Shown piece after piece: positions 2,917 through 24,646 of a DNA stretch of 34,622 nt (position 1 is the stretch's first letter; each line of letters begins with the position of its first letter). The stretch is from a virus. The stretch is from positions 1 to 34,622 of IMG/VR virus record IMGVR_UViG_3300031364_000011. The stretch is one strand, 5' to 3'. A program made the translations under genes and the position numbers. Under the pieces are notes generated by a model that ran no database searches, had not been told where the DNA came from, and saw only the letters and a program-made list of their open reading frames with translations.

Positions 2917-4728
2917 ATGCCTACTCTTAATTTTCCATTTACAAATATTGAAAATTATACGGTCGATACAGATGAAATGAATATAGTAGCCGGGAAAATG
3001 AAACTTGCATTACAGCAGGATGATGTTGATTTTGTCGAGGATTTTGCAGACGATACGGATTTTATTTATGATAGCGATTTAGCAGAGTTTTTCGATGAAG
3101 AAGAAGATCCGTTGTTATTAGTAAGACAAAAAAACAAAAGACCTACAAATGCAATTTTTTACGCTTCTTTTACAAATGGTAAAGACGCTTCCTGGGGAGA
3201 AGGAACATTAACGGGCACATTAGGCGGTAATGCATCGGTACATGATGGTTATCTTGATTTGTATTCTGGCGGATATGAAGAATTTCCTATTGACAATTTT
3301 GCTTCTATGCAAAGCAGTTCTGGGTGTATTAGAAAAAGAATATCCTTTGATTATTCAGGAGCTGCTCCTAATGTACAATATATAATACAAACCAGTCCAA
3401 ATACTGCAAGTAGAGTGTATTTAGTTCATAATGCAACATTCATTCAGTGTTACATTACAAACACAGGTGGGACTACTATTTACAGTATGGTTTTTTCCTG
3501 GACTCCTAATCAAGGACAAATATACGAATTCGAAATTGACTGGACAAGTACTCACGCCTATATATTTATTAATGGCCAATTACAAGATTCAGATACGGGA
3601 TCGTTAGGAATGGCAGAACCATCATTATTCAGGATTGGAGCTGACGCTAATACTCAAATGAGATATTATGATATTATTGTTTTTAATACGTTGCAACATT
3701 CATCAAATTATGCACCTGATTGGTCAAATATATATGAATATGATTATCTCGGGTCATCTGTCATACTTCCAGAAATGGAACACGCCGGAGACGGTACAAT
3801 AAAATTATTTAATTCATTTTCGACAACAGAAACAGGGTCGCCACGTTATACTTTACAGATCGGACGTTCAGGAGACTATCTTTATTGGAATGGGTCTGCA
3901 TGGGTTGTGTCAAACGGCACATATGATCAAGCTAATGACGCAACTACTTTCAACACAAATATAGAATCACTCAATGTTGACGGTGAAAATTATGGACAAT
4001 TTAAAATAATTTTTACGGAATCAAATACTCAAAACTCTGTTGATGAATTAACAGCTAACATGAATGTTGATATAGGTTATCTGACAACCAATCCATATGG
4101 AAAAATAAATACAGGTTTTAGAACTGATGAACTGGAAGCATTTATTGAAACTACTACAAAAAACGGAAACGATGAAATAAAATATATTCTTGAAAAAGAA
4201 GGAAATTATTATTACTGGAATGGTAGTGCCTGGGTAACCGGAAGCTTACAATATAGTAATTCATCAACAGCAAGTGATATAAATACAAATTGTAGTGCGT
4301 TAGTTGATGGTTCATCCTTATGGTATATTTATTTTTTTCTGCATTCAGATGATGGTTCATCTACGCCTGAATTTGATAATTTACAGGTTAATTTTTCTTA
4401 TGGTGGTGAAACGCCTGATACAATTAACACTTGTTTGGTGTGGGGTTATATGTTCGACGCCGAAGGAAATCCGCTTACGGATTCATTCAATATCAGACTT
4501 AATAAATATATTGTCGAGTATGGCAGTTACTCATCTATATTAAAAAACGATGACATAAGGGTAACCCCGGATGAGTCGGGATATTGGGAAGTAGCTTTAA
4601 TAGAAAATGAAAATATGGTTTCACCTGACGGTGAAGATGTGAAATATATTTTTGATTTCGGAGATACAAATGTATTCGAAAAAACTGTACCGAATGAAAC
4701 AACAAAGGCGTATAACGATCTTGAATAA
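2917..4728 (+). CDS. LamG/concanavalin-like surface protein with two internal repeats
   Basis: A 603-residue protein between terminase and the head-tail connector, where lambda has no equivalent. After an acidic N-terminus (about 35-65), residues 80-275 resemble a laminin-G/concanavalin-like jelly roll (the IYEFEIDWTSTHAYIFINGQ stretch is typical). Two related modules follow, each with a YWNGSAWV motif, near residues 321 and 430. The last 100 residues look like an immunoglobulin or carboxypeptidase-regulatory fold. There is no signal peptide or catalytic motif. It is likely a virion surface fibre that binds a carbohydrate, perhaps on the head. Its own promoter and strong RBS suggest high expression. 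The family is inferred from fold-like features only. Confidence 0.5.
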   Translation: MPTLNFPFTNIENYTVDTDEMNIVAGKMKLALQQDDVDFVEDFADDTDFIYDSDLAEFFDEEEDPLLLVRQKNKRPTNAIFYASFTNGKDASWGEGTLTGTLGGNASVHDGYLDLYSGGYEEFPIDNFASMQSSSGCIRKRISFDYSGAAPNVQYIIQTSPNTASRVYLVHNATFIQCYITNTGGTTIYSMVFSWTPNQGQIYEFEIDWTSTHAYIFINGQLQDSDTGSLGMAEPSLFRIGADANTQMRYYDIIVFNTLQHSSNYAPDWSNIYEYDYLGSSVILPEMEHAGDGTIKLFNSFSTTETGSPRYTLQIGRSGDYLYWNGSAWVVSNGTYDQANDATTFNTNIESLNVDGENYGQFKIIFTESNTQNSVDELTANMNVDIGYLTTNPYGKINTGFRTDELEAFIETTTKNGNDEIKYILEKEGNYYYWNGSAWVTGSLQYSNSSTASDINTNCSALVDGSSLWYIYFFLHSDDGSSTPEFDNLQVNFSYGGETPDTINTCLVWGYMFDAEGNPLTDSFNIRLNKYIVEYGSYSSILKNDDIRVTPDESGYWEVALIENENMVSPDGEDVKYIFDFGDTNVFEKTVPNETTKAYNDLE

Positions 4729-5076: not shown

Positions 5077-6765
5077 ATGGATCTTAGAGCATCGTATATA
5101 CAGAAGGCCCGTACACTAATGAAGCTAGGACTTGAAGACAGGGCAATAGTATTACTTAATGCAGCAAGTAAGATAAGCACTCAAGAAAAAAATACTTTCA
5201 AAAGTATACACAGAACAGAAAGCGACAAATTGCAATATTATGTTACCGATCTTGTGGATGCAATATGGACCGGTGAAAAGTTCCCGGGAGGATTCGGTCT
5301 TACAAAAGATTTTGTTTTTGTTGATTATTATACTCTTCGTACTCGTTCTGTTCAATTATTCAAAGAAAATCTATATGCTCGCGGAATGTTAAGACGATTA
5401 TTAAGAAATGAAATCCACAAAGGACTTAACCTCGAAGCTAACAGTATAACAGAGATCACGGGGCTATCCGATGAAGAAGCGATCGACTGGGATGAAAACG
5501 CAGAGCTTGAATGGAAAATATGGGGTGATGAAGAAAAAATATGTGACTGGCAAAAAAAGAAAAAGTTCGGAGAGTTACAGCATGATGCCAGAATGTCCGC
5601 TCTCATTTCAGGAGATTGTCTTATAGTGATACATATAGATCAAAAATCAAGCCTGCCATCAATTGAATTGATAGACGGGACAAATATAAAAAGCCCATTC
5701 AATCAAACAGTACGAAAAGGAAATAGAATAATACACGGAGTTGAACTCGATAGATTTGACAGGCACGTAGCATATTGGGTTCAGACACAAATAGATAACG
5801 GCTATCAAATGAAACGTATACCATGTTACGGTGAAAAATCAAAACGTAAAATAGCATTTCTCATTTATGGGACAGATAAGCGTCTTGATGAAGTTAGAGG
5901 GGAACCAATACTTGCACTTGTATTATATATGCTAAAAGAACTTGATAGATATAGAGACGCAGAGCAAAGGGCAGCTGTACTTAATTCAATAATTCCATTA
6001 TTTATTAAAAAAACAGAAGGCGGTCTCGGAAGCCATCCACTTAACAAAGGTGCTATTAAGCGTGGCACTGATACAACCGAAGATTTTGATAGTACTGAAA
6101 GGACATATCATATAACGTCCTCATTACCTGGAACTATACCGGATGAATTGAACAAGGGAGAAGAACCTACATCATTTGATACAAAACGTCCGAATGTCAA
6201 TTTTAAGATTTTTGAAGAAACAATAATCAACGCTTTTGCATGGGCTTGTGAAGTCCCTCCGGAAATAGCACGTCTTTTGTTCCAGTCTAATTTTTCAGCT
6301 TCCAGGCAGGCTAATAATGAATTTAATGTTTATCTTTCATATATAGCCTGGAAATTTGGTAATAATTTTTGTCAGCCGATATATGAAGAATTTCTCACAG
6401 CATCAATTTTGCTTAATCAAATAATGACTCCCGAATTTCTTAATTCATATTGGTCCGGGAATTGGCGTGTTATGCGTGCATGGTTTAATGCCGAATGGAC
6501 CGGAATATCAAGGCCGAGCGTTGATTTGCTCAAAGATGTAAAAGCAGCAAAAGAAGCACTTGCACTTTGTACAACAACTTTTGATCAACAATCAAGAAAG
6601 ATATCCGGTATGTCATTTAGGACAATTATAAAAAAGCGTGCACGTGAGAAAAAATTACTTGATCAAGCCGGGCTAACATCAAGCGTTGATGAAACATCCA
6701 CAGGTGAGCCGATTGTTTCCAGGATATCTGAAATGGAAGAAAAGATTTTTGAAATGGAAGGTTAA
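5077..6765 (+). CDS. Portal protein, lambda gpB family
   Basis: A 562-residue protein that forms the dodecameric ring through which DNA enters and leaves the head. Length and layout fit the lambda-type portal family. Recognisable stretches are LYARGMLRRLLRNEIHKGL near 100-120, the stem region with RYRDAEQRAAVLNS near 290, the ACEVPPEIARLLFQSNFSAS block near 385-405 and the closing region with DVKAAKEALALCTTTFDQQS near 490-510. It follows the connector gene by 8 bases and precedes the lysis cassette. An insertion of lysis genes between portal and protease is unusual for lambda-like heads. Confidence 0.93.
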   Translation: MDLRASYIQKARTLMKLGLEDRAIVLLNAASKISTQEKNTFKSIHRTESDKLQYYVTDLVDAIWTGEKFPGGFGLTKDFVFVDYYTLRTRSVQLFKENLYARGMLRRLLRNEIHKGLNLEANSITEITGLSDEEAIDWDENAELEWKIWGDEEKICDWQKKKKFGELQHDARMSALISGDCLIVIHIDQKSSLPSIELIDGTNIKSPFNQTVRKGNRIIHGVELDRFDRHVAYWVQTQIDNGYQMKRIPCYGEKSKRKIAFLIYGTDKRLDEVRGEPILALVLYMLKELDRYRDAEQRAAVLNSIIPLFIKKTEGGLGSHPLNKGAIKRGTDTTEDFDSTERTYHITSSLPGTIPDELNKGEEPTSFDTKRPNVNFKIFEETIINAFAWACEVPPEIARLLFQSNFSASRQANNEFNVYLSYIAWKFGNNFCQPIYEEFLTASILLNQIMTPEFLNSYWSGNWRVMRAWFNAEWTGISRPSVDLLKDVKAAKEALALCTTTFDQQSRKISGMSFRTIIKKRAREKKLLDQAGLTSSVDETSTGEPIVSRISEMEEKIFEMEG

Positions 6766-6766
6766 A

Positions 6767-6973
6767 ATGGAAAAGATAGATATGATTTATAATACTGTTA
6801 TTGAAAATCAAAAAGATATAAAAGATATATTATCGGTTATGCCTAATTTACAAACACAAGAAAAATGTGAAGAAATTAGAAAAGAAAATAAAAATATTTT
6901 TAAAGGCAATTTGAAATATATTATAACAACTTTTATAGCATTAGGCGCTGTAATAATAGCTATATTTTTTTAG
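6767..6973 (+). CDS. Small C-tail membrane protein, XhlA-like
   Basis: 68 residues: a charged, probably coiled-coil N-terminal part (about 1-45) and one C-terminal membrane helix (about 48-67, YIITTFIALGAVIIAIFF). This layout is that of XhlA/haemolysin-type lysis accessory proteins, which sit beside endolysin and holin. I chose ATG 6767 because GGAAGG lies just upstream and the start follows the portal stop by one base. The frame is open further up to 6686, but that would overlap the portal without reason. It opens a lysis cassette with the endolysin next. Confidence 0.55.
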   Translation: MEKIDMIYNTVIENQKDIKDILSVMPNLQTQEKCEEIRKENKNIFKGNLKYIITTFIALGAVIIAIFF

Positions 6974-6982
6974 GAGTTTAAA

Positions 6983-7576
6983 ATGTTGACCGACAAAACA
7001 ATTAAAAACTGGAAAAAAATATTTGTCAAAGAACTTGAAAAACAACTAAACGCCAGATATACGTTAGGTGGCGGACAAATGACAAAATATTCAGGATATA
7101 ATAATCTTGATGAAAACGGATATCCTGTCGGTTTCGACTGTTGCGGTGGTATAATATATGCAATTGAACAGACAACAGGATTAGAGTTGTCACCTCGTCC
7201 CGTTAATAGCTTTTTAAATACAATATGGCTTGATGAAATTATAGAAACACAATTACAGGAAGGCGATTTAATCCTTGTCGATATACCAGGAATGAAGAAT
7301 GGAAACCTGCTCATTGATAAAAGTGGGAAAACAATATATGGCAAGTTTAATCATGTGATGACATTTGTGCCTAATGGTGTATATGATATAATTACAACTG
7401 AAGGGGTTGGCGGTGATCATAGAATAAATCCGAGTTCAAGTGCAACAACCAGAAGATGGAAATTATCAGAGTTTAAAAGAGTTTCATCATTAATTTTTAA
7501 AGGAAAAACAAAATATAAATATATGAGAATAAACTGGCAGTGGTTTTTTGACTGGAAAAATTCACACCAGGTATAA
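6983..7576 (+). CDS. NlpC/P60-type endolysin
   Basis: A 197-residue cell-wall hydrolase, likely an endopeptidase that cuts the peptide stem of peptidoglycan at the end of infection. It shows the NlpC/P60 layout: YTLGGG near 26-31, the catalytic cysteine in GFDCCGG (Cys53), and the catalytic histidine in FNHVMTFV (His124). The usual motif is DCSG, so the residue after the catalytic Cys is a second Cys here. No signal peptide is seen, so it needs the nearby holin to reach the wall. Its RBS (TAGGAG) overlaps the previous stop codon. Family confidence is good; the cut bond is inferred. Confidence 0.82.
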   Translation: MLTDKTIKNWKKIFVKELEKQLNARYTLGGGQMTKYSGYNNLDENGYPVGFDCCGGIIYAIEQTTGLELSPRPVNSFLNTIWLDEIIETQLQEGDLILVDIPGMKNGNLLIDKSGKTIYGKFNHVMTFVPNGVYDIITTEGVGGDHRINPSSSATTRRWKLSEFKRVSSLIFKGKTKYKYMRINWQWFFDWKNSHQV

Positions 7577-7587
7577 CGGAGGTTTAT

Positions 7588-8010
7588 ATGCCTATCAAAG
7601 AAATTAAATCACAGAAAACAATATGGGTTGTATGGCTCATTATCATATCTGTTTTTTTACTTTTTCCGCTTCAACTGATTGTAACATTTGAAATACCGTT
7701 CGACGGTGCAATCTGGGCGTTGCTTTTGATTGTAGGCGGTTATATGGGATTCGATCAATTTGCAACGGTAGTTACATCAAGAACTTTACCGGTAGGATAC
7801 AAATATACGGGTTCATATAAAAAATTACTTTTCGTAACAATTGCACTATGGTTAATTCTCATAGAAGCTATTATTTTTCAGGGAATTTTAAATCAAATCA
7901 AATTACCACTCGATCAATTATTTTTTGCAGTTGGGGTGATTTCCGGTATTTTCGCAGGCGGAAATAAATTAAATAATGTAGCCGAACAGCATGAAGGTGA
8001 GGAAAAATGA
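7588..8010 (+). CDS. Holin (probable), multi-pass membrane protein
   Basis: 140 residues with four likely membrane segments: about 12-36, 43-64, 80-102 and 108-127. It ends in a short charged tail (AEQHEGEEK). Its place between the endolysin and the spanins, and the lack of any other motif, make a holin the best reading: it would form the lesion that lets the endolysin out. It has a good RBS (CGGAGG) and overlaps the next gene by four bases (ATGA). I do not recognise a named holin family. Confidence 0.65.
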   Translation: MPIKEIKSQKTIWVVWLIIISVFLLFPLQLIVTFEIPFDGAIWALLLIVGGYMGFDQFATVVTSRTLPVGYKYTGSYKKLLFVTIALWLILIEAIIFQGILNQIKLPLDQLFFAVGVISGIFAGGNKLNNVAEQHEGEEK

Positions 8011-8514: not shown

Positions 8515-9375
8515 ATGAGTATAAGAACACAATTACATAGAGTAAGAAAAGATACACGTGAAGTTGATGAATATGCAGCTAACGTATGGCATGTATGGTC
8601 GGCTGTTTCCGCGAGTGGTTCAGGTGTTAGCTGGGAAACAGCTTTTAAAACATTCGCAGAGGCTTTAGTAGTTGCGACTGCAGGTGATGTAATTAAAGTG
8701 TTAGGTGAGTTTAATGAATCAGGGCTTGAATTAGCAGTCGAACTCACAATTATTGGTAGTGATGTTTCAAACAATCATTATCGAACACTTTTTTATTCAG
8801 ACGTCGAGACACCTATTTTTATACCAAAAGCAAATAATATTACAGTCAAAAATCTTGGTATTGCACAACAGGCAGCATATCCAGCTATCAAAATTGGTGA
8901 CGCATTAGGCCAATCATGGTATAAATTATTACTTCAAAATCTTAAGATTGACGGATGGGGAGCAGCGACATATGGTGTGTCATTCGGCCATGCAACGGTA
9001 GATGCTCCAGATATTCATATTGAAAATTGTCTTTTTAGATCAATTGCAGGAACTCATATCGTTTCGAACGCAACCAGGGGACGATATAATAAAAATAAAT
9101 TACTTCTCTCGACAAACGGAGTCGGAATTGATCATCAACCTGATACATCAGACAGACCTGATACGATTATCGAAGAAAACCTTATTGTCGGTGTTAATTC
9201 GGGCGATACCGGAATAAAGATTACAAATACCCCGGATGCGGGTAAATTGATTGCGCGCAGAAATGATATTTTTAATTGCGCAACGACCATCACGCAAAAA
9301 GCAACAAATGTCGCAGTGCAGATGAATTACACTAACGATGGCGCAGGCGGTGTTTTAATTGATCCGATAGCATAA
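8515..9375 (+). CDS. Right-handed beta-helix (pectin-lyase-like) virion protein
   Basis: 286 residues with the repeating short-strand pattern of parallel beta-helix proteins: NNITVKNLGI, IHIENCLF, IIEENLIVGV, IARRNDIFNC. Near 35-60 it has the usual opening WETAFKTFAEALVVATAGDVIKV in shortened form. No catalytic residues of lyases or depolymerases can be assigned, so it may only bind or coat. It has its own promoter and a strong RBS (GGAGGG). Its place between the lysis genes and the capsid protease points to a head-associated or decoration role; a spike is the alternative. Confidence 0.55.
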   Translation: MSIRTQLHRVRKDTREVDEYAANVWHVWSAVSASGSGVSWETAFKTFAEALVVATAGDVIKVLGEFNESGLELAVELTIIGSDVSNNHYRTLFYSDVETPIFIPKANNITVKNLGIAQQAAYPAIKIGDALGQSWYKLLLQNLKIDGWGAATYGVSFGHATVDAPDIHIENCLFRSIAGTHIVSNATRGRYNKNKLLLSTNGVGIDHQPDTSDRPDTIIEENLIVGVNSGDTGIKITNTPDAGKLIARRNDIFNCATTITQKATNVAVQMNYTNDGAGGVLIDPIA

Positions 9376-12585: not shown

Positions 12586-13253
12586 GCGCACTTATAACAA
12601 CACTTATCGACAAACAGGACTCAAATGAACTTGTAAGGGACCAGATAGCAGCAATACTTGCAGTCGAGGTGGCAAACCAAAGAACGCTTGCGATAGCAGA
12701 CGGTAAAGACCCAGATGATTATTCCTTTTCGGTATATATTGAACGATCGAAACCATGGGAGAGCGGAGAAATGCCACTTGTTAACGTGTTATTTGATAAT
12801 GATCGTTTTGATAATCGTAATTCAAATATGTTAGATAGACAAAGAGCAATAGGTACATTTTATATAGATTGTTATGCGAAAAAAAATACGACAGATGATA
12901 ATGAAGGTGATGAATTATCATCTAAAGAAGCCGACCGCATAGCAATGCTTGTGCGTAATATAATTATGTCGAATGAATATTTTCAACTTGCACTTGGTTA
13001 CCGTGAACTTGGCGTAGGCAATAATATTGTTTCACGTCGTTACATTATGCGTAGAGAAAAGTTTCAACCCGATATCAGAAACGAAGCCTATGAAAACATA
13101 ATAGCCTGTCGGGTAATGGTAGAGGTGGAATATGACGAGTTCAGCCCGCAGACCGAAACAGAAGATTTTGAATTGTTAATACACTCATGTAAAAGGAGTG
13201 ATGATGATAAGGTCCTTTTTGTGACCGAACATGATATGACAGAGGAGGAATAA
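12582..13253 (+). CDS. Tail terminator / Mu gp37-like protein
   Basis: 223 residues between head completion and sheath, the position of the Mu gp37-type tail terminator. Mid-protein motifs such as MPLVNVLFDNDRFDN, an IGTFYIDCYAK strand and a late NIIACRVMVEVEYDEFSPQ strand followed by a short tail fit this class, which caps the tail tube and joins it to the neck. It starts within the last four bases of the previous gene and ends one base before the sheath start. Confidence 0.6.
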   Translation: MSALITTLIDKQDSNELVRDQIAAILAVEVANQRTLAIADGKDPDDYSFSVYIERSKPWESGEMPLVNVLFDNDRFDNRNSNMLDRQRAIGTFYIDCYAKKNTTDDNEGDELSSKEADRIAMLVRNIIMSNEYFQLALGYRELGVGNNIVSRRYIMRREKFQPDIRNEAYENIIACRVMVEVEYDEFSPQTETEDFELLIHSCKRSDDDKVLFVTEHDMTEEE

Positions 13254-13254
13254 T

Positions 13255-14736
13255 ATGTCAATAGCGCAATCAGTAGTTGCCCGTGTAACGGGTGTTAATG
13301 TTTCATACAAGAATTTTAATCTCGGTCAAGCTCAATATTTACCTCAGCGTATAGCTGTAATAGGGCAGGGTCGTACAACTCTTAACGGGACATATTCAAA
13401 TGATAAGGCAGTTGTAACGTCTGAAAAGGATGTTGCCGATACATATGGATATGGTTCACCGCTTCATCTTGCTTGTCGTCAATTATTGCCGGCTAATGGA
13501 AACGGAGTGAAGGGAATCCCTGTTACTGTATATTCTCTTGATGATTCGGGTACCGGGGTTGTTGCAGACGGTTCAATTGATGCAGTCGGAGATGCTATAG
13601 AAGATGCAAGCGGTTATGTATATGTAGGCGGTGTAAAATCAGCAAAAATTGTGATATCAAACGAAGACACGGCGGCCGAAGCGTTAGCAATTATAAAAAC
13701 AGCAATAGACGCAGTTTTATATATGCCGGTCACAACAGGAGTTATTGCAGAAGGTTCACTTCCTCTTGAAGCAAAGTGGTTAGGCGAAAGTGGAAACGAC
13801 ATAACACTTGATGTTTCTGAATTGATTGTGGCAGGTCTTACTTTTTCGGTAACCGATATGGCGAGCGGTGCAAATAATCCGAGTGTTCAGGACGCGCTTG
13901 ATATTATTGATGAGACCTGGGAAACACTTATAATCAATTGCATGAATTATGATGATACAACAAATAACGCATTATATCATACAGCAAATGAAGCACGGTG
14001 GGAACAGACTGTCAAGAAACCGTTTATAGTTTTCACCGGATGTGTTGACAATTATGCAACCCGTACAGCGATAACAGACGCAGCAGCAGCGAAAGCATAC
14101 AGAACTATGGCGCTTGTTCAATCTTGCGGGTCCCGTGAATTACCTTTTGTTATTGCAGCCCAGGGACTTGTCAACGATATTGCGCAAAAAGCAAATGATA
14201 AACCGGCTCATAATTATATCGGAACTCTTGAAGGATTACAAACCGGTGCTGATACGGTCCAGGAAAATCACTCGGTAAGGGACGCGGCTGTAAAACTTGG
14301 TTCATCGACAAATATAAAAGTTGGAAGCCTTGCGGTGATAGCTGATATTGTCACATGGTATCATCCTGCCGGAGAAGATCTGCCCGCTTATCGTTATGTA
14401 GTCGATATTGTGAAACTCATGAATATTATATATAATCTCGATATTATCCAGGAAACATTCAGGGGAAGGCCATTATTGCCGGATGATACGCCGACAAATG
14501 ACCCGGATGCGGTACAGCCCAAAATGATACAATCAGTATTATCAGTGTTGGCCGATTCGCTTGCATCAGGCAGGTCGGCAATTATAGCGGATGCAGATTT
14601 CACAAAAGAAAACATGAGCGTGTCAATTAACGCTACAAACCCGAAAAGAATTGATACTGTTTTCCCTGTGAAACTATCAGGTAATGTCGAGGTTAATTCA
14701 ACCGATGTTTATTTTTCATTTTATTTAGGTGAATAA
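13255..14736 (+). CDS. Contractile tail sheath protein, Mu gpL-like
   Basis: 493 residues, the length of Mu-type sheath proteins. Typical features are the opening with a PQRIAVIGQG strand, the middle block with LIINCMNYDD and KKPFIVFTGCVDN, and the C-terminal VSINATNPKRIDTVFPVKLSGNVE, which closely matches the conserved end used in sheath-sheath interlocking. It is followed directly by the tube gene. This pair shows that the phage is a myovirus. Confidence 0.9.
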   Translation: MSIAQSVVARVTGVNVSYKNFNLGQAQYLPQRIAVIGQGRTTLNGTYSNDKAVVTSEKDVADTYGYGSPLHLACRQLLPANGNGVKGIPVTVYSLDDSGTGVVADGSIDAVGDAIEDASGYVYVGGVKSAKIVISNEDTAAEALAIIKTAIDAVLYMPVTTGVIAEGSLPLEAKWLGESGNDITLDVSELIVAGLTFSVTDMASGANNPSVQDALDIIDETWETLIINCMNYDDTTNNALYHTANEARWEQTVKKPFIVFTGCVDNYATRTAITDAAAAKAYRTMALVQSCGSRELPFVIAAQGLVNDIAQKANDKPAHNYIGTLEGLQTGADTVQENHSVRDAAVKLGSSTNIKVGSLAVIADIVTWYHPAGEDLPAYRYVVDIVKLMNIIYNLDIIQETFRGRPLLPDDTPTNDPDAVQPKMIQSVLSVLADSLASGRSAIIADADFTKENMSVSINATNPKRIDTVFPVKLSGNVEVNSTDVYFSFYLGE

Positions 14737-14752
14737 GAAAGGAGCATAAAAC

Positions 14753-15136
14753 ATGGCATCAGGCGGACCATTAGAAAGTATAACAATTGATAGTCGGCGT
14801 TTTCCTGTAGACGGAGAGGTTAACGCTATGTTATCTCTTCCAGGATATACGAATGAAATCAAATCGAATGGTGATCGTAAAACATTTCGTATTGTTAAAA
14901 CTGCAAAAACAGGAAAAACGAAGGCAATACCGATCGTGATTGATAATGCGAGAGGCGATATGGAATTTATACAAGATGTTATGGACTCACCTGAACCTGT
15001 CCCGTTTTTTGCTACAGAAGTAGATGGTACAGTATGGGAAGGTGAAGTTATGATTTCCGGTGATCCTGAAAAATCGACAAAAGAATCGACTATGGAAATT
15101 GAAGTGCATGGTTTTATAAAGAGACAGGGGGCATAA
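14753..15136 (+). CDS. Tail tube protein, Mu gpM-like
   Basis: 127 residues immediately after the sheath, the standard order. It begins with a strand-rich segment (ESITIDSRRFPVDGEVNAML), has FRIVKTAKTGKTKAIPIVID in the middle and a long beta hairpin near the end (VWEGEVMISGDPEKSTKEST), as in phage tube proteins that stack as hexameric rings. RBS AAAGGAGC. Its last base overlaps the first base of the chaperone start. Confidence 0.8.
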   Translation: MASGGPLESITIDSRRFPVDGEVNAMLSLPGYTNEIKSNGDRKTFRIVKTAKTGKTKAIPIVIDNARGDMEFIQDVMDSPEPVPFFATEVDGTVWEGEVMISGDPEKSTKESTMEIEVHGFIKRQGA

Positions 15137-15567
15137 TGTTAGGTGATAAAAAGAAAAACAAAGTAGACCGTGAAACAGCAAGTGATATGTTTATGAGATT
15201 TTGTGAAGACTGGGAAATCGATTGCGATGAATCAGGAATGACACAGGATGATAAAATTGATTTTGAATCTCAAAAATCTAAAATAGTAAACTCTGTTATG
15301 AAGGGACGTCTTATATATGAAAACGAATGTCTTGTATATACTGTAAGTTCAAAATCAACAGGACTTGAAGGACAGGAAATTAAAATACAGCGACCAAAAG
15401 GCGCAGCATATATGGAAATGGACAGATTTAAAGATCGTGAAGGTGTCCACAAAACCTACGCTGTATTATCAGCTATGACCGGTCAACCTTCATCATTCTT
15501 TGCAAAGTTAGATGGTATTGATCTTAAACCATTCATGGCAGTGGTGACACTTTTTTTAGCAGGATAA
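15136..15567 (+). CDS. Tail assembly chaperone, short form (Mu gp41-like)
   Basis: 143 residues, placed between tube and tape measure where nearly all long-tailed phages carry a chaperone that binds the tape measure during tail assembly. The C-terminal third (QRPKGAAYMEMDRFKD and PFMAVVTLFLAG) fits the Mu gp41 / lambda G class. Most ribosomes would stop at TAA 15565. Just before it is a slippery heptamer from which a longer form can be made. It starts inside the last base of the tube gene. Confidence 0.75.
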   Translation: MLGDKKKNKVDRETASDMFMRFCEDWEIDCDESGMTQDDKIDFESQKSKIVNSVMKGRLIYENECLVYTVSSKSTGLEGQEIKIQRPKGAAYMEMDRFKDREGVHKTYAVLSAMTGQPSSFFAKLDGIDLKPFMAVVTLFLAG

Positions 15568-15767
15568 TCTCTGTAGTTGCTAAAGACGGCAGAGAAAAAA
15601 AGATATTAGGTATAACAGGTGTTATAATACAACTATTACAGATTGCAACTGATTATAATTCCTTGCCGGATTTACGAACTCTTGAATTGTTTGAAATCCG
15701 GTTTTTTTATGAACCTCTTATACCTAATTTAATTGAATATCAAAAGAAAGCGAACAAGGATGGCTAG
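15136..15767 (+). CDS. Tail assembly chaperone, -1 frameshifted long form (Mu gp41-42-like)
   Basis: If the ribosome slips back one base at 15552-15558, the first 141 residues continue with 69 more read from AGC at 15558, giving 210 residues and ending at TAG 15765. The extension is a good protein, not noise: it contains SVVAKDGREKKILGIT and then LFEIRFFYEPLIPNLIEYQ, much like the second chaperone domain of Mu-like phages. The extension ends 5 bases beyond the ATG of the tape measure, tying the two genes together. In lambda the same trick yields gpG and gpGT in a fixed ratio. Confidence 0.78.
15552..15595 (+). other. Programmed -1 ribosomal frameshift signal
   Basis: The slippery heptamer T TTT TTA (15552-15558) lies in the correct zero-frame phase, with codons TTT and TTA. 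After a 9-base spacer comes a hairpin with arms TCTCTG (15568-15573) and CAGAGA (15590-15595) and a 16-base loop. The heptamer, spacing and downstream structure match the textbook arrangement, and the zero-frame stop lies inside the spacer. Confidence 0.78.
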
Positions 15768-17499
15768 TCGCTATAGTATCGAAGCAGTATTTAGAGCAAT
15801 AGATAAGTTCACAGCTCCTATGACAAAGTTTACACGCTCGACAAAAACATTCACAAGTATTGTTAGGCGTGATTTTGCACGTGCTCAACGATCGGTCAAT
15901 AATTTTGTAAGAAACTTTAAAAGAAATTTTGGCAGGAATCTTCTTATCGGTGTAGGTATAGCAGGTGCAGCAATAACAAAGTTGACAATTGAATCGTCAA
16001 AAGCATGGGATATACAAGCAGCTGCAATAAAAAATGTAGAGGCAGGTATACAATCGACGGCGGGTATTGCGAACAGAAGTCTTGCAGAATTAGAAGCACA
16101 GGCAAAATCATTACAGGCTAACACGTTCATAGGCGATGAATCTATTCTCCAAGGTGTTACAGCTCAAATGCTCACATTTACAAATGTAACTGAGGAAAGA
16201 TTTGACAGAGCACAACAGGCAATAGTCGATGTTACTTCTAAACTTTACGGTCTTGATGCAACAACAGAAAACTTTCGTTCAACATCTATCCAAGTTGGAA
16301 AAGCCTTGAATGATCCTATTGCAAATCTCGGCGCACTTGGTAGAATGGGTATTCAATTTTCAAAATCACAAAAAGCAACCATAAAGGATCTTGTGTTAAC
16401 AGGTCGGCTAACAGAAGCGCAGAGCATTATACTCACAGAAATAGAAAAACAATATGGAGGTACAGCGGCAGCGCTCGCAAAGACGGCAGGTGGTATGCAG
16501 AAATCAACAAAGAATCTAACAGGCGATATGCTTGAGTTAATAGGAAAAGGGATTGAACCTTTACGGCTTAAGTTTTTAGAGTTTTTAAATAAAATACTTG
16601 TAAAATTATTACCATACATAAAAAAGTTTACTGATTTCATAGAACAAAATGCGGATGTTATTTTTAATACATTTGTAAATACCTTAAAAGTTGTCTGGAA
16701 TGTAGTAAAAACAGGAATAAAAGTTTTTACAACTATTTATAAAATACTCAAACCATTTGCGCCTATCATCTTCGGAATCATAGCAGCATTCATGATTTAT
16801 AAAACTGTTCTTATGGCGGCTGCTGTTGTCCAGGCGATAATGAATGTAATAATGTTGGCAAATCCAATTGGGCTTATAATTATTGCAATTGGTATACTTA
16901 TTGGACTTGTTATAATAATAGTTACTCACTGGAAAAAAATAGTCGCATGGCTTAAAAAAGTATGGGATGCGGTTGTAAAGGTAGCAAAGGCTATATGGGA
17001 TTGGCTTGTAAAAGCATTCAAAGGCGCTGTTGAATGGACAAAAAAAGTAGGCCAGAAGTTTACGTTTTTTCTTGGTCCTGCAGGCGCTATTGTCTCTATA
17101 TTGATTGAAATCGCCAAACAGTGGGATAAAATAGTAGGTAAGTTCAAATCAGATGATATATTAGGTGGCATACTTGCAATAGGCGGTGCTATTCTTTCAG
17201 GAATACTTGCGCCTGTTCAGGGATTGCTTGAATTATTATCAAAGATTCCAGGCGTAGGCGATCTTGCGAAAGGTGGTGCCGAAAAAATAGCAGAATTCAG
17301 ATCGTTTCTTACAGGCGAAGAAAAAACACCAATATCACCTGCTGAACGTTCGGCGACTATCAGAGAACAGAAAACCTCATCAGGCGAGCTTGTTATACGG
17401 GATGAAACAGGAAAGGCACAATATAAAAATATAAAAGGGTCGCCCGGATATAAAATAAGACTTCAAACGTCAAGTGGATTTTCCGGAGGTGCTCATTAA
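15760..17499 (+). CDS. Tape measure protein
   Basis: 579 residues from the ATG at 15760. It fixes tail length and is later ejected with the DNA. The N-terminal half is helical and rich in Ala, Gln and Lys. The region about 340-400 contains several long hydrophobic segments (such as IGLIIIAIGILIGLVIIIVT), and amphipathic tryptophan-rich helices follow (AIWDWLVKAFKGAVEWTKKV), as usual for tape measures. I chose this ATG, not TTG 15733, because it overlaps the end of the frameshifted chaperone. At about 1.5 angstrom per residue the tail would be roughly 85 nm, a family rule of thumb. Confidence 0.88.
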   Translation: MASRYSIEAVFRAIDKFTAPMTKFTRSTKTFTSIVRRDFARAQRSVNNFVRNFKRNFGRNLLIGVGIAGAAITKLTIESSKAWDIQAAAIKNVEAGIQSTAGIANRSLAELEAQAKSLQANTFIGDESILQGVTAQMLTFTNVTEERFDRAQQAIVDVTSKLYGLDATTENFRSTSIQVGKALNDPIANLGALGRMGIQFSKSQKATIKDLVLTGRLTEAQSIILTEIEKQYGGTAAALAKTAGGMQKSTKNLTGDMLELIGKGIEPLRLKFLEFLNKILVKLLPYIKKFTDFIEQNADVIFNTFVNTLKVVWNVVKTGIKVFTTIYKILKPFAPIIFGIIAAFMIYKTVLMAAAVVQAIMNVIMLANPIGLIIIAIGILIGLVIIIVTHWKKIVAWLKKVWDAVVKVAKAIWDWLVKAFKGAVEWTKKVGQKFTFFLGPAGAIVSILIEIAKQWDKIVGKFKSDDILGGILAIGGAILSGILAPVQGLLELLSKIPGVGDLAKGGAEKIAEFRSFLTGEEKTPISPAERSATIREQKTSSGELVIRDETGKAQYKNIKGSPGYKIRLQTSSGFSGGAH

Positions 17500-19971: not shown

Positions 19972-20432
19972 CACGTTGGTTATCATCAAAAGTAGAGACT
20001 TATATAACCGGTATTATTGAGAGCAGGATAAATGAACGCATACAGTCTATATTGTATGGTCCAGCCGGTGATGATTCACCACCGTTACCAGATGACAGAT
20101 GTTTGATGATAAAAATTGACGGTTCAGGAAACCATATTATTTCAGGCGTTATATGCAAATCTCAAGGCGCGGACCCTGGAGAAAAGATTTTATATTCCCG
20201 TGATTCGAATGGAAATGTCCAGGCTACAATAAAACTATTATCAGATGGCACAATAGAAATAAACGGAAATGCTGATTTTGCAGTATCATGGACAGATTTG
20301 AATGCAGCTTTGCAGGGTTTGGTAACCGCAATAAATGCAGCATTTGCATCAAAATCAAATGGTAGTGGATCACCTGGGACATTAACTCTTGATCTTTCAA
20401 GTGCAAAATCAACGGAGGTGAAATTGTCATGA
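19959..20432 (+). CDS. Baseplate spike protein, Mu gp45-like
   Basis: 157 residues. The N-terminal helix (about 5-35) is followed by a short OB-like region and then a regular strand run (YSRDSNGNVQATIKLLSDGT, then IEINGNADFAV) expected for the triple-stranded beta-helix of the membrane-piercing spike. The end, STEVKLS, is polar. The place between hub and gp46-like wedge is the same as in Mu. It overlaps the hub gene by 13 bases and the next gene by 4. Confidence 0.8.
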   Translation: MGKIARWLSSKVETYITGIIESRINERIQSILYGPAGDDSPPLPDDRCLMIKIDGSGNHIISGVICKSQGADPGEKILYSRDSNGNVQATIKLLSDGTIEINGNADFAVSWTDLNAALQGLVTAINAAFASKSNGSGSPGTLTLDLSSAKSTEVKLS

Positions 20433-20896
20433 ACAGTTATGAAGGTGATGTTTTAATTCATTCAACTAATGACGGTGGCGAGATCAATTTTAACGATGGT
20501 GTTATAGAAATGACTCAAGGATTTGAATCAATAGTTTATTTATTGTTATTCGGAGGAAATTATAAAGATGACGGAACAGATGCAACAAAAAAATATCAGT
20601 GGTGGGGCAATCTCCTTGAGGAAAATAATCCGGAAAGAAAATTACATAGTAGATTTCAGAATCTATTATATGGTTTACCGGCGACCCCTGCGAATCTTAA
20701 ACGATTACAGGTGGCTGCAGAACAAGATTTATTGGTCTTGACTTCTGAAAAAATATGCGATAAAATTGAAATTGAATTAAGCATATCAGCAAAAAATTGG
20801 ATTTCAGGTGAAATAATATTATGGAAAGATCAACAGAAGTTATATGAGACATCATTTGAAGAAAACTGGAAAGGGCAGGTAGAAAATGGCTCTTGA
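20429..20896 (+). CDS. Baseplate wedge, Mu gp46-like (gp25/W family)
   Basis: 155 residues. The opening GEINFNDGVIEMTQGFESIVYLLLFGG and the central YQWWGNLLEENNPERKLHSR block are characteristic of Mu gp46-type proteins, the small wedge protein that helps start sheath assembly. Later strands end in WISGEIILWKDQ. It overlaps its neighbours by 4 bases upstream and 11 bases downstream. Confidence 0.8.
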   Translation: MNSYEGDVLIHSTNDGGEINFNDGVIEMTQGFESIVYLLLFGGNYKDDGTDATKKYQWWGNLLEENNPERKLHSRFQNLLYGLPATPANLKRLQVAAEQDLLVLTSEKICDKIEIELSISAKNWISGEIILWKDQQKLYETSFEENWKGQVENGS

Positions 20897-23051
20897 AAAT
20901 AAAACAATCAGTGAAATAAATGAAGCTATTATAAATCAAATAGAGGCGCAAATAAGTCAAACAATTCCAATTCTCCCAATTTCATTCACGCGTATTTTAG
21001 CAAAAATACTCGCAGGTGTTTTTTTAATTCTTTATAAAGTAGCACAAAAATTATTTTTAGATATATTTGTCTCAACAGCAAGTTTTAAGGAAACGACGAT
21101 ATTCGGAAAAAAAGTAACACCTCTTATAGAGTGGGGCGTAGTGGTTGGTGCAGGCCAGCCACAAACAGCCATACAGACGGAGCTTAAAATAGAAGTCACT
21201 GTAAACGATATAGGAGAAACATTACCTTCGGGTACTCAGTTTATTTCGACGTTAAACGGTCTTATATATATTACACAAACAGATTATATATTAACAGCGG
21301 GCCCGGATGCTATTGATGTTATATGTACAACTGGAGGAAGTGACGGAAATCTTGAAGTAGGCCAGACGCTTACACTTATTAACACGCTGGGAATTATTGA
21401 TAATGACGCAGATATAACTGATATATTGATTACAGGTGTTGACGCAGAATCAGAAGCATCTTATCGTCAAAGAGTTGTTGAACGATTTCAATTACAACCA
21501 CAGGGCGGGGCATTAGCTGATTATCGCTTATGGGCATCGGAAGTTGAGGGCGTCTTACAAACATATATTTATACCGGTGACCCTGGGAACGTTTTGATTT
21601 ATGTTGCGGGTGATATAGATTTATATAGTGATAGAATACCGGATAGCGCATTATTGCTATTAATCGGTGCAGCGTGTACATACGATCCAATTACAGGAAA
21701 AGCTACAAGAAAACAGGTTACAGCAATTATAGATCCGGATGGCGATGAAACATATGGGAATGTATTACCAATCACGGTTAAGTTGTTTGATGTGATTATT
21801 TTTGATCTTGATGTCGAAGATGAAGCCGATGTAATGGATCAGATAGAGGAAGCGCTTGAAGCATTTTTCCTTGAGAAAGAACCATATATTTTAGGTTTAT
21901 CGGTATTGCCAAGGCGGGATATAGTTTCGAGAGTTAATGTGATAGGAATTATTGATGATATAGTTAATGCGAATAATGGCAGTTTTTCAGATGCTTTAAT
22001 ATATGAAAAAGATACTTATATGGCCGTAGCGCACGACACTTCGCCCTATATTACCATCTATAAAAGATCCGGCGACGTGTTTACCAAGTTAGCTGATCCA
22101 GCCGACTTGCCCGCAGGTGCAGGACGAGGTTTTTCTTTTTCTGCTAATGGTGTTTATATGGCCGTAGCGCACTACACTTCGCCCTATATTACTATCTACA
22201 AGCGTTCTGGTGATACATTCACCAAGTTAGCTGATCCGGCTAGTTTACCAACTGGAAATGGGCAACTATGTGCCTTCTCATCGGACGACACCTATCTTGC
22301 AGTTTCGTATACAACTTCACCTTATATTACCATCTATAAGCGGTCTGGTGATACATTCACCAAGTTAGCTGATCCGGCTAGTTTACCGGCGAGTACCGGT
22401 TATGCTTGCGCTTTCTCATCTGATGATACCTATCTTGCGGTGGCGCATCCAACTTCCCCCTATATTACCATCTACAAGCGGTCTGGCGACACTTTCACCA
22501 AACTAGCTGATCCGGCTAGTTTACCAACTGGAAATGGTTATGCTTGCGCTTTCTCATCGGACGGTACTTATCTTGCAGTGGGGCATAGCACTTCGCCTTA
22601 TATCACCATATATAAACGTTCTGGTGATACATTCACCAAGTTAGCTGATCCGGCTAGTTTACCAACTGGAATAGTACGTGGTTGTATATTTTCATCAGAT
22701 GATACCTATCTTGCAGTTTCGCATATTGGCTCGCCCTATATTACCATCTATAAAAGATCCGGCGACACTTTCACCAAGTTAGCCGATCCGGCAAGCTTGC
22801 CGGCGGGAAATGGGCAACTATGTGCCTTCTCATCGGATAATATCTACTTCGCCGTAGCACATTCATATTCGCCTTATATTACCATATATAAACGTTCAGT
22901 TGATACTTTCACCAAGTTAGCCGATCCTGCAAGTCTGCCGACTGGAGATGGCTACGGCGTTATGTTCTCAACCGGCGGATTGATAAACTTTCATACCCTC
23001 GAAGAAGGTCAGCTTGCACAATTAGATTTATTGGATTTTCAGGATTCATAA
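20886..23051 (+). CDS. Baseplate J protein (Mu gp47-like) with inserted seven-repeat propeller
   Basis: 721 residues. Residues 1-360 are a normal baseplate J protein: FGKKVTPLIEWGVVVGAG, LPSGTQFIST, AESEASYRQRVVERFQLQPQ and the RRDIVSRVNV end. Residues about 377-695 are seven near-identical 46-residue repeats with SPYITIYKRSGDTF, KLADPASLP and AFSSDDTYLAVAH, most simply a seven-bladed beta-propeller. The last 26 residues (FHTLEEGQLAQLDLLDF) look like the normal J C-terminus, so the array was inserted inside the gene, not added after it. J bridges hub and wedge; the array would give the baseplate rim a binding surface. Confidence 0.85.
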   Translation: MALENKTISEINEAIINQIEAQISQTIPILPISFTRILAKILAGVFLILYKVAQKLFLDIFVSTASFKETTIFGKKVTPLIEWGVVVGAGQPQTAIQTELKIEVTVNDIGETLPSGTQFISTLNGLIYITQTDYILTAGPDAIDVICTTGGSDGNLEVGQTLTLINTLGIIDNDADITDILITGVDAESEASYRQRVVERFQLQPQGGALADYRLWASEVEGVLQTYIYTGDPGNVLIYVAGDIDLYSDRIPDSALLLLIGAACTYDPITGKATRKQVTAIIDPDGDETYGNVLPITVKLFDVIIFDLDVEDEADVMDQIEEALEAFFLEKEPYILGLSVLPRRDIVSRVNVIGIIDDIVNANNGSFSDALIYEKDTYMAVAHDTSPYITIYKRSGDVFTKLADPADLPAGAGRGFSFSANGVYMAVAHYTSPYITIYKRSGDTFTKLADPASLPTGNGQLCAFSSDDTYLAVSYTTSPYITIYKRSGDTFTKLADPASLPASTGYACAFSSDDTYLAVAHPTSPYITIYKRSGDTFTKLADPASLPTGNGYACAFSSDGTYLAVGHSTSPYITIYKRSGDTFTKLADPASLPTGIVRGCIFSSDDTYLAVSHIGSPYITIYKRSGDTFTKLADPASLPAGNGQLCAFSSDNIYFAVAHSYSPYITIYKRSVDTFTKLADPASLPTGDGYGVMFSTGGLINFHTLEEGQLAQLDLLDFQDS
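22014..22970 (+). repeat. Propeller repeat array 1 (7 copies, 138-base unit)
   Basis: Seven copies of a 46-codon unit inside the baseplate J gene. The array begins in mid-unit (YMAVAH followed by SPYITIYKRS) and ends with the complementary part (TKLADPASLP then VMFS), a circular permutation that would let the last blade close on the first. Differences cluster after LP and between AH and SP. DNA copies differ by silent changes (for example KRS as aaaagatcc, aagcgttct or aagcggtct) in a mosaic pattern. Confidence 0.85.
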
Positions 23052-24646
23052 TGGCAGTAAATGAAAAATGGTTTAAAGTAATAAAACAACTCGTTCCAAA
23101 GTCAAATGCATTTATATTATTTATTCAGAAAAAATTTACTCAATTTTTTGAAGGATTGACGATAATACCTGATGAGTTCAGAGACTATATACATCAAATA
23201 TGGTTTGATATTTTCCCGTCAACTACAAGAGAATTAACAAAATGGAAAAATCAATTTGGAATAATCTATTTTCCAACTCTGGAAGCAGATCAGCGTCAAA
23301 TGATAGATACAGAATGGAAATTAGAAGGCGGTCAAGGAAAAGATTATATTCAGGAACAATTACAAAATGCAGGATTCGATGTCCAGGTACATGAAAATAT
23401 AGCACCTGTTAATCCTGATTTTTTTTATGATGGCGACAATTTACTTGTTAACGGTCCGCTAAAAGAAGCCGGGCAGATTGAAAAAGTATATATAATCACA
23501 GATGATTCTGATTATTGGGGATTTTTCTTTTTTATTGGAGGAGATGTAACCTACGCGCTGATATGTGATAAGTTAGATGATCCTGCCAGTTTACCAGCAG
23601 ATGATAGTTATGGATGCGCTTTCTCATCCGATGATACTTACCTTGCAGTGGGACATATTGGCTCGCCCTATATTACCATCTACAAGCGGTCTGGCGACAC
23701 TTTCACCAAACTAGCTGATCCTGCTAGTTTACCGGCGAGTACCGGTTATGCTTGCGCTTTCTCATCTGATGATACCTATCTTGCGGTGGCGCATAATACT
23801 TCGCCCTATATTACCATCTATAAAAGATCCGGCGACATTTTCACCAAGCTAGCTAATCCGGCAAGCTTGCCAGCGGGAAATGGTTTAGCTTGTGCTTTCT
23901 CATCGGATGGTACTTATCTTGCAGTGGGGCATATTGGCTCGCCCTATATTACCATCTATAAAAGATCCGGCGACATTTTCACCAAGCTAGCTAATCCGGC
24001 AAGCTTGCCGGCGGGAAATGGTCGAGGGTGCGCATTCTCAGCAGACGATACTTACCTTGCGGTGGCGCACTACACTTCCCCCTATATTACCATCTACAAG
24101 CGGTCTGGTGATACATTCACCAAGTTAGCTGATCCGGCAAGCTTACCGGCGGGAAATGGTCGAGGGTGCGCATTCTCAGCAGACGGTACTTACCTTGCGG
24201 TGGCGCACTATACTTCCCCCTATATTACCATCTACAAGCGGTCTGGCGACACTTTCACCAAACTAGCTGATCCGGCAAGCTTGCCAGCGGGGACCGGTTT
24301 AGCTTGTGCTTTCTCATCGGATAGTACTTATCTTGCAGTGGGGCATAATACTTCGCCCTATATTACCATCTATAAAAGATCCGGCGACATTTTCACCAAG
24401 CTAGCTAATCCGGCAAGCTTGCCAGCGGGGACCGGTTTAGCTTGTGCTTTCTCATCGGATGGTACTTATCTTACAGTGGGGCATATTGGCTCGCCCTATA
24501 TTACCATCTATAAAAGATCTAGAAATGGTATTTTTGAAATAGAAACAGTTAATATATCATCTGATAGAGAAAATGAATTTAAACGATTAATATTAAAATT
24601 AAAACCTGCTCAGACGTGGACAATATTGATTGTTAATTATACATAA
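23051..24646 (+). CDS. Mu gp48-like tail protein (DUF2313) with inserted seven-repeat propeller
   Basis: 531 residues. Residues 1-172 match the Mu gp48/DUF2313 type (LVPKSNAF, then IFPSTTRELTKWKNQFGI and WGFFFFIGGD). Residues about 174-490 are seven copies of the same 46-residue repeat found in the upstream gene. The final 41 residues (SSDRENEFKRLILKLKPAQT followed by WTILIVNY) are the normal conserved family end. So here too the array sits inside the gene, a few tens of residues before its C-terminus. The start directly follows the previous gene's stop. The gene abuts the next, convergent gene with no base between the two stop codons. Confidence 0.85.
   Translation: MAVNEKWFKVIKQLVPKSNAFILFIQKKFTQFFEGLTIIPDEFRDYIHQIWFDIFPSTTRELTKWKNQFGIIYFPTLEADQRQMIDTEWKLEGGQGKDYIQEQLQNAGFDVQVHENIAPVNPDFFYDGDNLLVNGPLKEAGQIEKVYIITDDSDYWGFFFFIGGDVTYALICDKLDDPASLPADDSYGCAFSSDDTYLAVGHIGSPYITIYKRSGDTFTKLADPASLPASTGYACAFSSDDTYLAVAHNTSPYITIYKRSGDIFTKLANPASLPAGNGLACAFSSDGTYLAVGHIGSPYITIYKRSGDIFTKLANPASLPAGNGRGCAFSADDTYLAVAHYTSPYITIYKRSGDTFTKLADPASLPAGNGRGCAFSADGTYLAVAHYTSPYITIYKRSGDTFTKLADPASLPAGTGLACAFSSDSTYLAVGHNTSPYITIYKRSGDIFTKLANPASLPAGTGLACAFSSDGTYLTVGHIGSPYITIYKRSRNGIFEIETVNISSDRENEFKRLILKLKPAQTWTILIVNYT
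23570..24520 (+). repeat. Propeller repeat array 2 (7 copies, 138-base unit)
   Basis: Seven copies of the unit, here beginning with KLDDPASLP and ending with SPYITIYKRS, so the array is cut in another phase than array 1. Some neighbouring units are almost identical at DNA level (the two units with the GRGCAFSAD loop near 24018 and 24158), and a 72-base block at 23723-23794 is identical to 22377-22448 in array 1. Recent duplication and exchange are likely. Confidence 0.85.

Follow-up and report, generated by a model that had tools for sequence, protein, structure and literature searches.

Contractile phages normally recognize their receptors through separate fibers or spikes attached to the baseplate wedge. 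In the locus analyzed here, two neighboring wedge genes each carry a long array of similar repeats, which raises the question of what these arrays form and whether they could do the work of a fiber. We examined the IMG/VR record IMGVR_UViG_3300031364_000011 in its entirety (34,622 bases, a linear fragment; hereafter, the window). The window comes from a contractile-tailed phage and encodes a GpA-type terminase, a lambda-type portal, a tail sheath, a tail tube, baseplate hub proteins and a baseplate wedge subunit. The genes for J and then for a gp48-like protein sit after the wedge subunit gene; gp48 is the last late gene in the window, and the next genes are on the opposite strand. The features relevant to the analysis are:

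13255..14736, + strand, tail sheath protein of the contractile tail (phrog_165, 1.1e-80)
20429..20896, + strand, baseplate wedge subunit upstream of J (phrog_180, 2.9e-16)
20886..23051, + strand, J open reading frame (721 aa), wedge protein with inserted predicted propeller (Baseplate_J; phrog_6)
22014..22979, + strand, predicted J propeller array of seven blades, opening in strand b and closing after strand a (repeats; AlphaFold; PDB 7bid)
22989..23048, + strand, conserved C-terminal segment of J (FHTLEEGQLAQLDLLDFQDS), which in L091 and L093 directly adjoins the body (HTLEEGQL)
23051..24646, + strand, putative gp48-like wedge open reading frame (531 aa) with inserted predicted propeller (phrog_4920, 6e-30; weak phrog_203 baseplate wedge)
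23567..24520, + strand, predicted gp48 propeller array, strands d-a-b-c seven times (repeats; AlphaFold; PDB 7big)
24521..24643, + strand, conserved C-terminal segment of gp48, including LKLKPAQTW, which ends array-less homologs such as those in L091-L094, L119 and L120

Repeat arrays in two wedge proteins

Residues 97-331 of J match Pfam Baseplate_J (4.3e-29), J also matches the phrog_6 baseplate wedge family (2.5e-34), and a Baseplate_J (PF04865) score of 102 bits against a curated cut-off of 21.1 makes J a member of the family. The identity of the putative gp48 is weaker than the J assignment and draws on the gene order after J, the phrog_4920 match and the weak phrog_203 match; Pfam gave no match for the window protein, and its homologs in L095 and L181 score 30.5 and 32.2 bits with PF10076 (Phage_Mu_Gp48, the Mu gp48/P2 gpI-type family), below the cut-off of 37.4. 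The genome-borne relatives of J are from Spirochaetota, the one group searched genome by genome (best, 50.5%), and the J protein of Acinetobacter phage Scuro is also near (43%).

The original prediction placed between 22014 and 24520 seven copies of the motif SPYITIYKRS in each of the two proteins, one per 46-residue (138-nt) unit, and both the coordinates and the counts are correct. The Tandem Repeats Finder scores of the arrays (779-1237) far exceed chance. The J array extends from 22014 (TYMAVAH) to 22979 (ending in MFSTGG), with FHTLEEGQLAQL beginning at 22989, and the gp48 array from 23567 (DKLDDPASLP) to 24520 (ending in IYKRS), with LKLKPAQTW beginning at 24593. Both sequences follow their array in frame, in agreement with the claim that the arrays interrupt the host proteins before conserved C-terminal pieces. 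The description of the blades as near-identical was, however, too strong. They are similar, with mean identities of 77% (J) and 81% (gp48) in protein and 73% (J) and 80% (gp48) in DNA.

Predicted fold of the arrays

AlphaFold2 models, built with alignments made solely from the window and the fetched loci, had 28 strands per array in J and gp48 alike and pLDDT values above 90 across most of each. The best solved matches were seven-bladed WRAP designer propellers, 7bid for the J array (TM 0.88 by target length) and 7big for the gp48 array (TM 0.90 by target length). The strand order is b-c, further d-a-b-c units and then d-a in J, and d-a-b-c seven times in gp48. Because J opens with strand b and closes with strand a while gp48 opens with d and closes with c, the arrays are different circular permutations, each with seven complete blades. 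The arrays are matched by several propeller families of Pfam, two of which (PF23389 and PF10282) score above their cut-offs, and by the WD40 repeat model below its own. Each array is thus predicted to be a seven-bladed WD40-type beta-propeller, and this modeled fold is well supported. The proposal that structure prediction would reveal two closed rings projecting from J and gp48 proteins of normal fold held for the rings, which were modeled with high confidence; the bodies outside the arrays were modeled at low confidence, so their normal folds rest on sequence families.

As in WRAP propellers (PMC9218822; solved structures), the window arrays make a seven-bladed ring of similar blades. Sequence identity between the WRAP structures and the window arrays is about 20% at most; unlike WRAP, the window arrays are inserted in phage wedge proteins and focus their variability on one face. 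The window blades also differ by many synonymous changes (up to about 0.53 per site, variable positions left out), whereas the Npun_R6612 WRAP domain has none, and this high synonymous divergence rules out a very recent amplification of the WRAP kind. Beta-propellers are present in other phage structural proteins too, including the T7 and SU10 nozzles, the K1F endosialidase and phAss-1 (cited in PMC10607447); as that source mentions them, they are nozzle, enzymatic or capsid-protein domains rather than wedge-inserted repeat arrays.

A search of the unit against phage proteins, proposed with the original prediction, showed that the module recurs in other phage tail proteins. SPYITIYKRS-type arrays, mostly of about seven units, were found at approximately 78 viral loci (L012-L089), in several circular permutations, in many different host proteins and sometimes as 2 or 3 arrays per contig. 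Blades occur in tail fiber-like and other tail proteins of phages and in fiber-like genes of Spirochaetota genomes (prophages), and one blade-bearing protein is encoded near a tail assembly chaperone and a holin. Most complete arrays of this widespread viral family have about seven units, and the family is a possible probe with which to search unannotated phages for receptor-binding proteins.

A predicted variable face on each ring

We profiled the variability of 547 blades from 81 arrays as the within-array entropy at each position of the unit. Entropy was highest at positions 35 (0.77), 17 (0.76), 19 (0.75) and 36 (0.68), all of which fall, by strand order, in the d-a and b-c loops that make the top face of WD40 propellers. 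By motif alignment, positions 17 and 19 correspond to R1-2 and R1, and 35/36 to D-1, the three hotspot residues that WD40 proteins generally use for partner binding (PMC3419727). Mean entropy was 0.55 at top-loop positions versus 0.23 at the others (P 4e-5, which is descriptive only because the top-loop positions were picked after the profile was seen). At five variable positions of the window blades, pN/pS was 0.92, compared with 0.16 at the remaining positions; the corresponding values for the blades of L090, a contig from another metagenome, were 0.73 and 0.28. Each ring is predicted to combine a conserved frame with strongly variable residues on one face, and this candidate binding face is unlike between the two rings and among phages.

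Fiber genes and retroelements at the same place in relatives

In L119, L120, L122 and L124, a fiber-like gene lies directly downstream of gp48 and is followed by a second gene without assignment. The homolog of the fiber-like gene in L091 matches tail fiber families and the one in L092 has a tail collar domain. We looked in the window for a convincing counterpart of the two downstream genes and found none. The earlier claim that ordinary tail fibers are missing stands for the usual fiber slot, but the window is a linear fragment and two of its proteins without assignment could be adhesins. The inserted propellers apparently stand in for the separate fiber of the relatives.

The two candidate adhesins are encoded upstream of the wedge genes. 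The first (2917-4728, + strand) is a 603-aa protein between the terminase and the portal without a Pfam match or phage relative. Solved antifreeze protein chains match it weakly (E 0.004), and it is possibly an adhesin or another virion protein. The second (8515-9375, + strand) is a 286-aa protein without a family match that resembles a parallel beta-helix by eye and is a possible virion surface protein.

Prophages of Treponema/Spirochaetales with a related J (L095-L098) carry a diversity-generating retroelement downstream of gp48, at about 12820-15812. Here, gp48 precedes two small genes, a lectin of the Mtd-domain/FGE type and a reverse transcriptase. The best 100-base matches between the 3' end of the lectin gene and the downstream template had 10, 10, 8 and 9 mismatches, all at template A, which is the mark of such elements. 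These Mtd/TvpA-type lectins are variable binding proteins encoded close to the position of the window arrays but have another fold, and the window arrays vary in codons that use all bases. We found no reverse transcriptase in the window, and its arrays do not have the features of a retroelement target. A retroelement origin of the blade variation was ruled out, because a reverse transcriptase was matched in only 1 of the 45 blade-bearing viral records searched (L101, on the contig of L062) and the variable blade codons differ at all bases rather than specifically at adenine.

A putative receptor-binding domain built into the wedge

Because the fiber genes of the relatives are absent from the window, blades are found in tail proteins elsewhere and variability concentrates at WD40 hotspots, we consider it probable that a mobile WD40-type propeller in J and in the gp48 wedge protein of a Mu/P2-like baseplate is a built-in receptor-binding domain that replaces the fiber of relatives. 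A propeller common to many environmental phages would have been inserted into both wedge proteins of the contractile baseplate, with rings that may point outward and, we infer, bind the host receptor. The contractile wedge of the (gp6)2-gp7 type, exemplified by XM1 gp16/gp17 and R2 pyocin PA0618/PA0619, has the same J-then-gp48 gene order (PMC10457771). The XM1 wedge is (gp16)2-gp17, and the baseplate has six wedges with two J-type subunits and one gp48-type subunit each (PMC10457771). By this rule, a virion of the window phage would display 18 propellers (12 on J and 6 on gp48). XM1 has separate tail spikes on its wedge (PMC10457771), whereas the window has an extra ring on both wedge proteins. 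Each propeller would keep a conserved framework and line one face with variable residues at WD40 hotspot positions. Judging from the sequences, this face may be altered by substitution under relaxed or diversifying selection, and blade fragments may be copied within and between J and gp48 without a diversity-generating retroelement.

The rings could instead be structural, bracing adjoining wedges or docking an unseen fiber or spike without contacting the host. WD40 propellers often serve as protein-docking platforms, XM1 spikes attach at the T4 gp7-type wedge protein, and a fiber gene may be missing from the linear fragment. Yet a docking face is expected to be conserved, and the hotspot positions of the top face are the most variable; furthermore, the window lacks the fiber genes found in close relatives, and the module is part of fiber-like proteins in other phages. 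We therefore regard a structural role as unlikely. General binding to environmental or surface glycans, for example to keep the phage near hosts without a specific receptor, is in our assessment improbable. It would fit a module spread across many unrelated phages, several of which have further tail proteins too, but not the position of the module, in the place of the usual fiber in the window lineage, nor a candidate face that varies from one ring to the other and among phages.

Receptor binding through a variable face of the wedge-borne rings remains our preferred reading. On this reading, the wedge would seem to hold receptor recognition as part of its own structure, in two places and on a scaffold of modular repeats that has a clear candidate binding face. 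Highly repetitive propellers are known in their own right, as are contractile wedges and variable receptor proteins, and the twin wedge insertion is undescribed in the literature that we searched: within their incomplete coverage, our searches yielded no account of propeller insertion into both wedge proteins and, with four blade-motif peptides, no report of the viral blade motif. Since Treponema prophages with a related J have a retroelement-driven lectin close to where the window arrays lie, two routes to variable receptor binding could also be compared on one tail architecture.

Insertion of the arrays into J and gp48

Insertion is well supported by relatives without the arrays. In the closest of these, L119 and L120, with J identities of about 67%, and L091-L094, with about 60%, the sites in both J and gp48 are empty; together with the predicted rings, the empty sites bear out the claim that propellers were inserted in two baseplate proteins. 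L090 has a J body 77-78% identical to that of the window and the same array junctions in J, and its gp48 enters an array of its own at the entry point of the window gp48. The L090 contig ends inside this array, so the complete twin structure is seen in the window alone. Except for L090, none of the J or gp48 homologs in more than 100 other contigs had a SPYITIYKRS-type module (counted by locus, since a few of the contigs were retrieved repeatedly), and all homologs matched over most of J have a J of 372-433 aa. A common site for this type of propeller in J/gp48 was discarded accordingly, as no further case emerged.

The arrays have a GC content of 46% and 49% in the window versus 32-37% for the flanking parts of J and gp48, and 52% versus 34-37% in L090. 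As array GC tracks phage GC in 67 other contigs (rho 0.88), the offset in the window and L090 suggests acquisition from a source of higher GC.

That an assembly artifact joined the repeats of a separate gene to J and gp48 is hardly credible, even though close relatives have normal J and gp48 proteins and two contigs of a Spirochaetota genome (G159; L105 and L113) end within blade arrays, because L090, from another metagenome, agrees with the window at the J junctions and at the gp48 entry junction while having its own blade consensus, both arrays are followed in frame by the conserved C-terminal pieces, and the longest exact repeat in the array region is 87 nt, shorter than a typical short read (a general figure from which the record's own reads may differ). 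The truncated contigs L105 and L113 suggest that arrays break assemblies and are under-counted.

L181 encodes a gp48 homolog (5992-7686, + strand; 564 aa) in which another repeat, 44 residues long (..WSPEL..SPDGINWT..), occurs seven times, at a different site from that of the window array. This repeat array is possibly an independent propeller insertion and, as read from its sequence, would support gp48 as an insertion place.

Apparent sequence exchange between the arrays

The J bodies of the window and L090 share 74% DNA identity, whereas their position-matched blades share 59-65%. Within the window, by contrast, J and gp48 blades average 75% DNA identity, with a maximum of 89%. A blade tree separated window from L090 (support 0.986) and intermixed the J and gp48 blades. 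Moreover, J blade 4 and gp48 blade 2 have in common a perfect 72-nt tract with mismatches clustered outside it. The arrays appear to exchange sequence because the J and gp48 blades are more alike than their L090 counterparts and share this identical tract, a pattern that fits gene conversion between the two arrays, although whole arrays could also have been re-acquired separately in each phage.

Tentatively, phage propeller arrays may represent a retroelement-free diversification of receptor binding that evolves partly by blade shuffling within an array and between two unrelated baseplate genes. If so, each ring would offer about 28 changeable face residues on a conserved seven-blade frame, with many rings per baseplate, and shuffled propellers would hold, in one tail lineage, the place of the fiber or retroelement-diversified lectin of relatives. 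Cross-gene blade similarity was rejected as a general rule, since the outcome in other contigs was mixed: the arrays of L015, L037, L064 and L084 had no excess similarity within their own contig, and most of the arrays that did have it resemble gene duplicates.
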